Origin: Bacillota bacterium
GTDB lineage: Bacteria; Bacillota; Limnochordia; Darwinibacteriales; JAAYFS01
DNA length: 64,000 nucleotides
Assembly: GCA_012728115.1 (NCBI GenBank)
Contig: JAAYFS010000052.1
Location: 1 to 64,000 of the forward strand
Direction: 5' to 3'
Under the pieces are notes generated by a model, which worked only from the letters and a program-made list of their open reading frames with translations, was not told where the DNA came from and did not search any database. Made by a program: the position numbers and the translations under genes. This document shows positions 2,237 to 7,354 of the stretch, piece after piece. The number at the start of each line of letters is the position of its first letter. Positions within the stretch are counted from its first letter, which is position 1.

Positions 2237-3964
2237 TCAGCTAGTAGCCTTCTTTACGATCTCAGGTGGATACCCCAAGTATTCTAGCAATGCTAATGCA
2301 TTGCTTGTTGTAGAAGGACCGTCCTTTAACCGATAATCAAACTCCAACCCTTGAGAACCGACCTTTTCTGAAAAGTGATAGTTTATGTAGCAGTCTGCCA
2401 GAATCTCGGTTAATTCTAGGTCATGAGTTGCAACCAAAACAATTGCATTTCTCCTGGATACGTACCGCAATACATTTACATTTGCTGTTAAACGCTCTGA
2501 AGAATTAGTTCCCCTAAACAACTCATCATAAATACAAAGACTGAGTCGGTTCGGATTCAACTTCTCTATAGTTCGTAGAACCGAAAGTGCTTCAACCAAG
2601 TAGTAACTTTGACCTTCGATTATGTTATCTGAACGACCGATCGAAGTAATCACCTGTAAAAACGGCGAACAATATTCACGGGCATGACAAGTGAATATTG
2701 TTTGGGCAAAAACGGCATTTACTCCCATGGTTCTCAGAAAAGTTGATTTCCCTGACATGTTTGAACCAGTGATTAATATCCCGTGATTTTTAATAGTTAA
2801 GGAATTACAGACTGGTTCCTTCAACAATGGATGATAAAAATCGTTGGCCTTTAGAATCATGCTCTTTTCACTTTCATCATTAGCGAAAACTGGAAGGGAA
2901 TAAAACTCTAGTCCTTCTCGATAAGACGCTACCGCTTGGAGTGCATCTAGCTCGCTAATTACTAGGTATAACTCTTGCAACGTTTCTCTATTTTTTTCAA
3001 TAAAACCAAGTGCTTTGTAAAAGGCACGAACTTCTGACAGAAAGAGGATACTGACGTATTGCCATAAAACCCCAAGGTACGGATCTCCAGATTCAAGTCC
3101 GACCAAGAAAACAATCCTCGAATACTTTCCTACTGAATGAATGATTTTTTTGAGCTTTTTTTGTTCTGCTTCCAGTCCATGTATCCGCTTTTTGGTTAGT
3201 AGCTTGCCAATATAAACCAAACGGCTTAGTGCTTTTATCGTTTCAAAATGATATTGGTTACGTTTCTGCTCTCTAAAATGCAAATACATGTTGATACTAA
3301 ACCCTATGCTTAAAAACGCGATTATTCCTTTTGGGGAAACGAAAGCTAATAGTAAGACTCCGATAATCATAGCAAGGAATAGGGCACTAAAAAACCAAGC
3401 ATACTTAGGTTTTTTAAGCGCTTTGTCTTCCCAAAGTAGTGAGGGGATCGCCCAACCAAAATCGTTACCGAACTTACCCAAAGCAATTTGCACTTGCTCC
3501 CTGATCTCTTTTTGTTCTTGAAATAAAGAGATTAGACGATTCCTTTCTTGAAGCTTCTTTTGAGAAAAAAGAAGATTTCTAAGCATTACATACAGTTTCT
3601 GGCTTCCAGGATAAGTTAAAGTTCGATCGACACGAGCATAAACCTCATCCATGTTAAGATCTTGCCATGTTCGATCATCTAGGCGAAATCCATCCTCAAC
3701 CTTGCTGAGGTCAAAGTATAAACGAATCTTAGCAAAATCTCTTTTCTTTTGTTTGTTCTTCCCCCACTGAATCCTAAGCTCATCCACTAGCTTTAGATGA
3801 CTGTACTTTTTAAAAAGGAAGAAAGCTAGGAGCGTGAAAAAGAACGCCGGAATAACTAAATACCAATACTCTTTTGCTACTTGTTGTCCTAATCCTACCG
3901 CGAAATAAAAGAATAGAATGGCCAATCCGATCGCAACGTAACTTCCCCATTTATACCTTCTCAT
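2237..3964 (-). CDS. Membrane-anchored MutS-family (MutS domain V) ATPase
   Basis: The C-terminal third is a MutS-type ATPase domain. Walker A is GSNMSGKST at about residues 400-408, the Walker B strand and acid are LCIYDE near 476-481, and THD (near 513) follows a hydrophobic strand. The mismatch-recognition and connector domains of true MutS are absent. Instead there are predicted membrane segments near residues 10-26, 34-51 and 190-228, with a helical lever-like region between about 230 and 370. It therefore belongs to the poorly characterised membrane-bound MutS homologues of Bacillota, not to MutS1 or MutS2. It starts 12 bases after polC, so the two are very likely co-transcribed. Its substrate is unknown to me. 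The Walker A and B motifs look intact. Confidence 0.85.
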   Translation of the reverse strand: MRRYKWGSYVAIGLAILFFYFAVGLGQQVAKEYWYLVIPAFFFTLLAFFLFKKYSHLKLVDELRIQWGKNKQKKRDFAKIRLYFDLSKVEDGFRLDDRTWQDLNMDEVYARVDRTLTYPGSQKLYVMLRNLLFSQKKLQERNRLISLFQEQKEIREQVQIALGKFGNDFGWAIPSLLWEDKALKKPKYAWFFSALFLAMIIGVLLLAFVSPKGIIAFLSIGFSINMYLHFREQKRNQYHFETIKALSRLVYIGKLLTKKRIHGLEAEQKKLKKIIHSVGKYSRIVFLVGLESGDPYLGVLWQYVSILFLSEVRAFYKALGFIEKNRETLQELYLVISELDALQAVASYREGLEFYSLPVFANDESEKSMILKANDFYHPLLKEPVCNSLTIKNHGILITGSNMSGKSTFLRTMGVNAVFAQTIFTCHAREYCSPFLQVITSIGRSDNIIEGQSYYLVEALSVLRTIEKLNPNRLSLCIYDELFRGTNSSERLTANVNVLRYVSRRNAIVLVATHDLELTEILADCYINYHFSEKVGSQGLEFDYRLKDGPSTTSNALALLEYLGYPPEIVKKATS

Positions 3965-3976
3965 CTTAGCCCCTCA

Positions 3977-6900
3977 CTAAAATAGAGTTAACTGGTTGGT
4001 TTCATTCATTCCATCGAGACAACCATGTAACCTCAGCGCTTCGATCACTGTCTTGGAAACTCTACTTCTCAACCTTAGATCTTCAATCGATGAAAACTCT
4101 CCTTCTTTTCGCGCGGTCACGATCGATTCGGCTGCGTTGATTCCAACCCCCTGTAACGAAGCGAGAGGTGGTAACAGAGTCCTATCTTCTAGAATCTTAA
4201 AATATCTTTGATCCGAACGATATAGATCAATCGGTGCAAATCTAATCCCTCGTACATACGCTTCGATTACCACATCTAAAATTTCTTCAACTTTTCTTTC
4301 CTTAACCGTTGCTTCATTTCCTTTTTCTCTAAGTTCTTCTTTAAAACGCCGTACCATACTTTCCCCTTGAACGATCATCTGTGCATCAAAGTTTTCAATT
4401 TCCATTGAAAAGAAAGTTGCATAAAATGCTTCGGGATGATGAACTTTAAAATAAGCAATTCGTATAGCAGAAAGAACATACGCTACAGCATGCGCCTTAG
4501 GAAACAAGTACTTGATTTTATTACACGAATCGATATACCAATCAGGAACATCAAACTGCTTCATCAAGCTGATATCTTGATCGGTCAATCCTCTGCCTTT
4601 GCGCACTTGTTCCATGATCCTAAAAGCATCGCTCGGCTCCAAACCTTTAGCGATCAAATAGGTCATAATATCATCTCGACAAGCGATAACGCTTGAGAAA
4701 TCAACCACTTTATTCCGAATCAGTTCTTGTGCGTTGTTCAACCATACGTCGGTCCCATGCGACAATCCACTGATCGAGATCAACTCACCGATGGTTTTTG
4801 GCCTGGTATCGATCAGCATCTGCCTGACAAACGACGTGCCGAACTCAGGGATTCCATAAGTTCCAACTGGCGTACCTATTTGTTCCTCGGTTACCGCTAA
4901 AGCATCTAGACCAGAAAAAATGCTTAGGGTTTTTGGGTCATCCAATGGTACTTCGGACATCGAGATACCTGTAAAATCTTCCAATATCTTTAACATAGTT
5001 GGACTAGTATGCCCTAGGTTGTCCAACTTCACTAAACTATCGTGAATATAATCATACTCAAAGTGAGTTGTAACCGTCCCACTCGAAGGATCATTTGCGG
5101 GATACTGAATCGGGGTAAAATCATAAATGTCCCGATCAGCGGGCACAACGATCATTCCACCAGGGTGTTGTCCCGTGGTTCGTTTGACTCCAACGATCTT
5201 TTTCACCAACCGATTGATTTCGGCATTACTTCTAGTTCCCCCAGTTTGCTCCAAGTATTTCATTACAAACCCGTATGCAGTTTTATCAGCGATCGTTCCG
5301 ATCGTACCTGCCCGAAATACTTTATCTGCACCAAAGAAATCTTCAGTGAATTTATTGATCTGACCTTGGAACTCTCCGCTGAAATTAAGATCGATATCTG
5401 GTACCTTGTCACCATGGAAACCCATGAAAACTTCAAACGGAATATTATACCCTTCCTTAATTAATGGAGTGTTACAACTAGGACAATCTTTTCTTGGTAA
5501 ATCCAAGCCACAATTGAGTGATGAATCATGTATAAATTCAGTCCACTTACAGTTCGGGCAAATATAATGAGGAATTAATGGATTTACTTCGGTAATATTG
5601 CACATTGTCGCGACTAAACTTGAACCAACCGAACCCCTTGAGCCAACCGAATATCCATTATCCAAAGATTCCTTAACCAAAATATGCGCAGTCCAATACA
5701 ACGAAGCATAACCGTTGCCAATAATAGCTTTAAGCTCTCTTTCAAGCCGATTTTTAACCAATTCGGGCAATGGATCCCCATAAATCTGATGGGCAGTGCG
5801 ATATGTTAGTTCCCGTACTTTTTCTTCCGCTCCTTCAATAATCGGTGGATGCAATCCTTGCGGTATCGGAACTAAGTCCTCTACTTCACTAGCGATCGCT
5901 CTTGGGTTTTCAACCACCACTTTATACGCAAGCTCACTTCCAAGATAACTAAACTCCTCAAGCATTTCATCGGTTGTTCGAAAATACAGAGGTGCTTGGC
6001 GTTCCGCATCATCATATCCTTGACCAGCCTGCAAAATACGGCGATAAAATTCATCTTCTGGATGAAGGAAATGAACGTCACCTGTGGCCATAACTGGGCG
6101 ATCCAGTTTTTCGCCTAATCGGCAGATCTCTAGATTAATCCTTTTTAAATCCTCCTGATTTTTAACATATTCTGTACCGATCAAGAACTCATTATTACCC
6201 AACGGTTGGATCTCTAGATAGTCATAGTAAGCAGCGATTTTTTCGCGATTTGGATCATTTCGTAAAACTGCTTGATACAACTCCCCTGCTTCACAAGCAG
6301 AACCAACGATTAAACCTTGGCGATGTTCGTCCAAGACTTTTCTGGGAATGCGAGGACGATAATAGAAATGTTTTAAATGCGAAATCGAAACCAACTTGTA
6401 TAAATTCTTTAAACCCTGTTTATTTTTAGCAATCAATACAATATGGTAGGAATAATCCTTTTCTTCATCAAGCAAGTAACCTTCTAAACCATAAAGTATT
6501 TTTATTCCATGTTTTTTTCCAACAAAGTATGCTTTCGGGAACGCTTGAACCACACCGTGGTCAGTAATCGCTATCGCTTCATGGCCCCATTTTGCCGCTT
6601 GAGCGATTGCGTCTTCAATATCCAGTAGTCCATCCATGCTACTCATCTTAGTATGTAAATGAAACTCAACTCGTTTTTCCTTTGCATCATCAGTCCTTTC
6701 GGGAGGGCTTTCAATTTGGTTGATTTGTTGTACCATCATCGATAATTCGCCCTCGTAGGCCTGGTATTGAATATTTCCCTTAATTCTAAACCAATGACCT
6801 TCTGTTACATCTGGAAGATCTTCGCTTGAATCAACAAATAACTTACACGTAATCGAATCCGTTCTATCATAGATATCGAAAGTAAGTAATGTCTTTCCTG

Positions 6901-7354
6901 TACGTGTCTGTCTAACTTCTTTAGCAATAATCTCGCCTTCGATAATGACTCCGCGTTCTTCTTCAAGAATTTCTTTAATAGCTATTGGCTCACCTTTGAT
7001 CGATGCATCTAATCGCCTCCTTCCACCATTTCGCCCACCGTTCTTGGGTTTTGGTTCTGGAGGTGGAGCCGAGACAGGACCAGGAAATTTTTTTACTACT
7101 TCTTCCATGTAATTATCACTTTCCCAAGCAAATTCCACCGAAACAATTTCTGGTATTTGAGCAATAATCTTTGCTTTCATTTCATCCCAAAAATAATCGG
7201 GTCCTTTCTTCGACCCTTTAAATGAAATAATCCATTGACGCTTCTGTGGATCCACTTGAATATGCTTGATCTCTAGCTCTTTTAGTAACGGATCTTGGGA
7301 TAAAGAAGTCAGAAGATCGTTATTATCTGGTTCAATGATAAAAACTGAAGGCAT
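3977..7354 (-). CDS. polC: DNA polymerase III PolC-type alpha subunit lacking the exonuclease insertion
   Basis: PolC is the replicative polymerase of Bacillota. Visible parts in order: N-terminal domain (1-90), a Pro/Gly-rich linker, an OB-fold (about 120-215), a PHP domain starting at FHLHTKMSSMDG (about 231-242), and the polymerase core. The core has GSRGSVGSS (about 571-579), the zinc-binding CPNC and CPSC pairs (about 599-627) and the catalytic PDIDLNFSGE (about 652-661). A C-terminal helix-hairpin-helix-like region follows. Usual PolC is about 1,400-1,450 residues with a DEDD exonuclease inserted in the PHP domain. Here EGYLLDEE (about 291-298) runs almost directly into YHIVLIAKNKQGLKNLYKL, so that insertion is entirely missing and the protein has 1,125 residues. 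The reading frame is continuous, so this is not a frameshift. The start has GAGGTGA upstream. Confidence 0.97.
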   Translation of the reverse strand: MPSVFIIEPDNNDLLTSLSQDPLLKELEIKHIQVDPQKRQWIISFKGSKKGPDYFWDEMKAKIIAQIPEIVSVEFAWESDNYMEEVVKKFPGPVSAPPPEPKPKNGGRNGGRRRLDASIKGEPIAIKEILEEERGVIIEGEIIAKEVRQTRTGKTLLTFDIYDRTDSITCKLFVDSSEDLPDVTEGHWFRIKGNIQYQAYEGELSMMVQQINQIESPPERTDDAKEKRVEFHLHTKMSSMDGLLDIEDAIAQAAKWGHEAIAITDHGVVQAFPKAYFVGKKHGIKILYGLEGYLLDEEKDYSYHIVLIAKNKQGLKNLYKLVSISHLKHFYYRPRIPRKVLDEHRQGLIVGSACEAGELYQAVLRNDPNREKIAAYYDYLEIQPLGNNEFLIGTEYVKNQEDLKRINLEICRLGEKLDRPVMATGDVHFLHPEDEFYRRILQAGQGYDDAERQAPLYFRTTDEMLEEFSYLGSELAYKVVVENPRAIASEVEDLVPIPQGLHPPIIEGAEEKVRELTYRTAHQIYGDPLPELVKNRLERELKAIIGNGYASLYWTAHILVKESLDNGYSVGSRGSVGSSLVATMCNITEVNPLIPHYICPNCKWTEFIHDSSLNCGLDLPRKDCPSCNTPLIKEGYNIPFEVFMGFHGDKVPDIDLNFSGEFQGQINKFTEDFFGADKVFRAGTIGTIADKTAYGFVMKYLEQTGGTRSNAEINRLVKKIVGVKRTTGQHPGGMIVVPADRDIYDFTPIQYPANDPSSGTVTTHFEYDYIHDSLVKLDNLGHTSPTMLKILEDFTGISMSEVPLDDPKTLSIFSGLDALAVTEEQIGTPVGTYGIPEFGTSFVRQMLIDTRPKTIGELISISGLSHGTDVWLNNAQELIRNKVVDFSSVIACRDDIMTYLIAKGLEPSDAFRIMEQVRKGRGLTDQDISLMKQFDVPDWYIDSCNKIKYLFPKAHAVAYVLSAIRIAYFKVHHPEAFYATFFSMEIENFDAQMIVQGESMVRRFKEELREKGNEATVKERKVEEILDVVIEAYVRGIRFAPIDLYRSDQRYFKILEDRTLLPPLASLQGVGINAAESIVTARKEGEFSSIEDLRLRSRVSKTVIEALRLHGCLDGMNETNQLTLF

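Follow-up and report, generated by a model that had tools for sequence, protein, structure and literature searches.

An exonuclease-less PolC from a Bacillota lineage that probably proofreads with its own PHP domain

An intact polC gene without the exonuclease insert

PolC, a drug target, is usually assumed to proofread through its exonuclease (Exo) domain. Here we describe a PolC-type DNA polymerase III that naturally lacks this domain. It is encoded in a 64,000-nucleotide stretch of DNA from an uncultured Bacillota bacterium (contig JAAYFS010000052.1 of assembly GCA_012728115.1, positions 1 to 64,000; order Darwinibacteriales, class Limnochordia), hereafter called the window. The polC gene runs from an ATG to a stop codon through 1125 codons with zero internal stops, as described in the initial annotation of this DNA; the strand, unstated there, is minus. 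Its product exceeds the cut-offs of both curated NCBIfam PolC models (TIGR01405, 1394 bits versus 1043; NF001688, 1506 bits versus 873), and carries the following parts:

3977..7354, minus strand: polC, PolC-type DNA polymerase III alpha without the Exo insert, 1125 amino acids (open frame; TIGR01405, NF001688)
6719..6949, minus strand: OB domain, residues 136-212 (Pfam PF01336)
6479..6673, minus strand: first part of the PHP domain, residues 228-292, with ligands H232, H234, D265, H266 and E291 (Pfam, ligand alignment)
6446..6481, minus strand: junction, residues 292-303, the insertion point of the DEDD exonuclease, about 200 residues long, in exonuclease-bearing (exo+) PolCs
6050..6445, minus strand: second part of the PHP domain, residues 304-435, with ligands H304, C354, D426 and H428 (Pfam, ligand alignment)
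6077..6079, minus strand: D426 codon, aligned with the catalytic Asp of the PHP exonuclease (D226 of Mycobacterium tuberculosis DnaE1)
5474..5560, minus strand: polymerase C4 zinc site, C599, C602, C624 and C627 (invariant alignment columns)
4592..5821, minus strand: polymerase palm, thumb and fingers, residues 512-921, with catalytic D653/D655 in PDIDLNF (Pfam PF07733, PF17657)
3998..4249, minus strand: tandem helix-hairpin-helix, residues 1036-1119 (Pfam PF14579, HHH_6)
3980..3994, minus strand: C-terminal clamp-binding motif QLTLF, residues 1121-1125 (Q1121 and F1125 invariant in the alignment)

These parts follow the order expected of a PolC, with the OB domain N-terminal to PHP, and then the Pol3 alpha region, the tandem helix-hairpin-helix and the C-terminal clamp motif. 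The OB, PHP, zinc and catalytic motifs noticed earlier from the sequence are borne out by Pfam domains and by alignment, in which the zinc cysteines, D653/D655 and QLTLF are all present and conserved.

The hallmark of PolC that is missing is the DEDD Exo insert within PHP. A Pfam scan of the protein gives no RNase_T match, and only 12 residues separate E291 from H304, compared with 204-218 in complete exo+ PolCs. The PHP domain appears as a single unbroken Pfam match (residues 231-376), and so both the reduction of the exonuclease segment to a few residues and the clean joining of the two PHP halves stand as first described. A continuous PHP domain and an absent Exo domain are the features that define the exo-less PolC variant (PMC3919608), in which the spacing ranges from 12 to 39 residues across the sequences collected here. 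The initial annotation had named two observations that would speak against it, namely an exonuclease motif set elsewhere in the protein or close relatives that carry the domain. Relocation of the exonuclease within the protein was rejected, as Pfam and NCBIfam scans reveal no such motif set, and no relative in the class has the domain. Every full-length PolC of the class has a short junction of 12-14 residues. An assembly or sequencing error as the source of the missing domain is practically inconceivable, being refuted by relatives: the frame is open, and the same junction is shared by every full-length PolC of the class and recurs in 44 other families. We found no point in favor of such an error.

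The length of 1,125 amino acids had been taken to fit the loss of Exo. The domain is indeed gone, but exo-less PolCs elsewhere are mostly 1140-1320 amino acids long, and therefore the window PolC is short at its N-terminus as well; Exo loss alone leaves its length unexplained. A structure model (mean predicted local distance difference test score, pLDDT, 83) matches Geobacillus kaustophilus PolC (3F2B) with template modeling (TM) scores of 0.82/0.92. Because the 3F2B chain carries a GSGSG linker in place of its Exo domain, the window PolC is the natural counterpart of this laboratory construct.

The neighbors of polC, which are nusA, rimP, ispG, rseP and dxr as named from reading the translations, are those usual in Firmicutes. 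Between rimP and polC lies a gene for a 575-amino-acid MutS-family ATPase (2237-3964, minus strand) with the Walker A sequence GSNMSGKSTFL and hydrophobic N-terminal segments.

Exo-less PolC is common in the phylum and did not originate once

In 2013, Timinskas et al. (PMC3919608) described 6% of PolCs as exo-less and assigned them to Clostridia and Negativicutes. The form is already known, but it is far commoner than reported, occurring in at least a third of the phylum genomes sampled. Among 399 evenly spread genomes, a continuous-PHP PolC is present in at least 143, a lower bound, and 129 of these genomes fall outside the class, in 44 families. Named carriers include Moorella thermoacetica, Desulfosporosinus, Selenomonas, Anaerovibrio, Phascolarctobacterium, Lachnospiraceae and Syntrophomonadaceae. 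Also outside the class, genome G421 encodes two exo-less paralogs (L288, L297). The survey of related genomes that had been proposed at the outset gave a uniform answer within the class, where every PolC found among 73 genomes is exo-less. Family f14 of the class yields no PolC match in its four genomes (G062-G065, single-contig ones included); the PHP site of its DnaE1 is intact.

A single origin of the exo-less form is ruled out by the trees. Changes between the exo+ and exo-less states number at least seven on an 80-row tree, at least five of them forced by well-supported branches, and at least 11 on a 157-row tree, with eight forced. Gain and loss of Exo are indistinguishable on these trees, but repeated loss is favored because all insertions share one site.

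The PHP metal site is retained in exo-less PolCs

All nine PHP metal ligands, whose completeness was an early question, are present in the window PolC (H232, H234, D265, H266, E291, H304, C354, D426 and H428). The class shows the same set, HHDHEHCDH, in 57/57 of its full PolCs. Across the larger collection, the nine ligands are complete in 94/94 full exo-less PolCs versus 45/59 exo+ PolCs, and broken sites are confined to exo+ sequences. Within the window's order, the PHP domain of PolC is conserved almost to the level of the polymerase core (mean identity 72% versus 75%).

Bacillaceae exo+ PolCs carry an Asp-to-Asn change exactly at the position of D426, and both solved PolC structures (3F2B, 9QPC) have Asn at this catalytic position. 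The corresponding D226N change in M. tuberculosis DnaE1 abolishes PHP exonuclease activity while the metals are retained (PMC5636811), and G. kaustophilus PolC gave no sign of such activity (PMC3666897). A Vallitaleaceae exo+ PolC (L403) has two changed ligands (NHDYEHCDH), a loss separate from the Bacillaceae substitution.

Many exo-less genomes lack a DnaQ-type protein

Among 80 exo-less genomes outside the class that are at least 90% complete, a search at E <= 0.001 yields no RNase_T (DnaQ-type) protein in 24, which belong to 12 families, and several near-complete genomes of the class likewise yield none. Family f13 of the class has two DnaE copies, each with a broken PHP site, whereas its PolC retains HHDHEHCDH. 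No RNase_T protein exceeds the cut-off in this family even at E <= 10, in a search that did not cover other exonuclease families; within that scope, the PHP domain of PolC is its sole recognizable replicative proofreader as predicted from sequence.

The order has a degenerate DnaE1

The initial annotation had suggested searching for dnaE1 and for epsilon-like exonucleases elsewhere in the genome. Both searches returned a candidate, although the DnaE1 is degenerate. The DnaE1 gene of the order follows murA, its usual place, in 30/33 loci. Its PHP ligands are broken in all genomes of the order with a readable PHP region (33 genomes, some represented by fragments), and the plain QxxLF clamp motif is absent from these proteins, except for QDHLF in one. 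In the window genome, a domain search does not recognize the OB domain of DnaE1. The PHP domain is evolving fast (mean identity 39% versus 56% for the polymerase core), and the best NCBIfam model, PRK05673, scores under its cut-off. In the rest of the class, DnaE1 mostly has an intact PHP site and a clamp motif.

A disrupted PHP domain, no typical clamp motif and a PolC in the same genome are traits of DnaE3-like polymerases. These sequence features indicate that the order's DnaE1 has probably decayed towards a DnaE3-like state. Because its PHP ligands and clamp motif are lost, this enzyme is probably limited to restricted synthesis, as is Bacillus subtilis DnaE3, and its decay argues for PolC as the main replicase of the order.

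The window genome also encodes a second DnaE (L074:4894-7953, minus strand) with the ligands HHDHEHCNH, beside a 326-amino-acid Y-family remnant resembling ImuB (L074:8206-9186, minus strand). The two may possibly represent a DnaE2-type mutasome.

A stand-alone DEDDh exonuclease is specific to the order

The only RNase_T protein of the window genome is a stand-alone exonuclease of 225 amino acids encoded on contig 28 (L001:1489-2166). Within the sample it is confined to the order, where 32/37 genomes carry it, and it forms one clade (99*). Residues D8, E10, D93, H157 and D162 of the DEDDh site are invariant, as are C193, C196, C213 and C219 of a Top1-like C4 zinc ribbon at the C-terminus. The protein scores above the cut-off of the DnaQ family domain model (TIGR00573, 103.7 versus 71.5), but it is not close to proteobacterial epsilon (TIGR01406, 109 bits versus a cut-off of 222.7). 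Its closest profile matches are PolC Exo domains, and a structure model (pLDDT 91) gives Foldseek matches to DinG, Escherichia coli epsilon and PolC Exo domains. The alignment holds no conserved Q..LF-type clamp motif, and the gene shows no synteny with replication genes, its neighbors not being conserved.

Two readings of this protein were set aside. An origin as an excised PolC Exo domain is favored by the profiles, but the tree places the protein on a long stem, poorly resolved and not nested among those domains, and we do not claim it. As a general substitute for PolC Exo it is ruled out by its restriction to one order. Since exo-less PolC is class-wide, whereas the exonuclease and DnaE1 decay are both order-specific, we tentatively suggest that the exonuclease edits for the PHP-dead DnaE or serves in repair, an assignment based on this one coincidence.

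Which activity proofreads for an exo-less PolC?

We consider it likely that the window PolC is a functional exo-less main replicase that proofreads with its own PHP domain. The initial annotation had listed three options: a DnaQ-like protein acting in trans, proofreading by PHP, or tolerance of a higher error rate. Proofreading by PHP is best supported because the ligands are invariant in 94/94 sequences, the catalytic Asp is kept and many genomes have no RNase_T protein. Proofreading in trans is not a general answer, but it might apply within the window's order, which does have a stand-alone DEDDh exonuclease. The proposed mechanism is that of Mycobacterium DnaE1 and Thermus Pol III: mispaired primer ends would be handed over to the PHP site with its three metals, which would trim them. 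The order's DnaE1 would perform only limited synthesis in the manner of B. subtilis DnaE3, the stand-alone DEDDh exonuclease would edit for DnaE1 or act in repair, and mismatch repair would provide a backstop, MutS being present.

Within the order, the invariant DEDDh residues of the stand-alone exonuclease, its presence as one clade in 32 of 37 genomes, its standing as the window genome's only RNase_T protein and its nearest profile matches to PolC Exo domains would suit an epsilon-like subunit acting in trans as the proofreader of PolC. We judge this unlikely, given that the protein is absent outside the order whereas PolC is exo-less class-wide and, beyond the class, in 44 or more families, and that it is missing from an order genome that is 96% complete (G026). 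Its gene is also remote from replication genes with unconserved neighbors, it has no conserved Q..LF-type motif and a tree, though poorly resolved, does not group it inside the PolC Exo domains. Alternatively, PolC might have no proofreading at all, with the cell depending on a selective polymerase together with mismatch repair, or tolerating a higher error rate. MutS with its mismatch-recognition domain was found in 10/10 genomes tested, which would suit such an arrangement, but if the PHP site were idle, its catalytic residues would hardly be expected to survive unchanged in every complete exo-less PolC across great evolutionary distances, and the order's DnaE1 exemplifies what relaxed constraint looks like. 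This explanation therefore seems quite improbable. We find it very improbable that DnaE1 replicates the chromosome with PolC as an accessory, as Timinskas et al. proposed for exo-less PolC. That division of labor is in keeping with the intact DnaE1 of most of the remaining class and with family f14, which is wholly without PolC, and it may hold elsewhere. However, it fails for the window's lineage, where DnaE1 has lost its PHP ligands, its clamp motif and, in the window genome, a recognizable OB domain, whereas PolC keeps all of these and evolves slowly.

Several points weigh against proofreading by the PHP domain of PolC, and the step from an intact site to actual editing is itself an inference. 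The PolC that was tested for PHP exonuclease carried the Asp-to-Asn change. The ligands could also be conserved for structural reasons or for a different PHP activity, as the PHP domain also stabilizes the polymerase (PMC3666897). The contrast in ligands between exo-less and exo+ PolCs is smaller than its Fisher p (5.6e-7) suggests, since the 14 broken sites amount to about three independent events on the tree. The lost DnaE PHP site and the stand-alone exonuclease occur together in just one lineage, a single event that does not amount to a correlation, and this exonuclease might serve PolC after all.

The broader picture, of whole Bacillota lineages in which PHP is PolC's only proofreader, repeated switching between Exo and PHP editing, and an order with convergent DnaE1 decay and a separate exonuclease, seems to us about as likely to be right as wrong. 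New here are the breadth of the form, the strict retention of the PHP site, the genomes without a DnaQ-type protein and the polymerase set of the order, which falls outside the combinations given in two surveys (PMC3919608, PMC12926913). If a third of the sampled phylum genomes do edit by PHP, the textbook account of PolC fidelity covers one of two modes. Families with neither Exo nor a DnaQ-type protein, one of them also without any other intact PHP site, make the long-standing question of editing by the PolC PHP domain directly testable, with M. thermoacetica among the exo-less species in culture.

Comparison with known systems

The window PolC shares with the exo-less PolCs of Clostridia and Negativicutes (PMC3919608) the lack of the Exo insertion in PHP and the presence of a DnaE alongside. 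There the form made up 6% of PolCs beside a typical DnaE1, whereas here it is fixed in the class and common in the phylum, and the order's DnaE1 is PHP-dead without a clamp motif. Relative to exo+ PolCs (G. kaustophilus 3F2B; 9QPC), the domains apart from Exo, the fold and the clamp motif are the same, but the insert is naturally absent and Asp, not Asn, occupies the PHP catalytic position. M. tuberculosis DnaE1 and Thermus Pol III (PMC5636811, PMC3666897) offer the precedent for the intrinsic PHP editing proposed here, having the same nine ligands including the catalytic Asp, although the window protein is built on a PolC framework and is known from sequence alone.

The partner enzymes show similar mixtures of old and new. 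Like Bacilli DnaE3, which accompanies PolC, the order's DnaE1 has a disrupted PHP domain and a lost clamp motif; unlike DnaE3, it lies in the usual DnaE1 neighborhood with murA upstream, and its PolC partner offers no Exo. The stand-alone exonuclease shares the DEDDh fold with DnaQ/epsilon and DinG, but it differs from them in its C-terminal C4 zinc ribbon and in its confinement to a single order.
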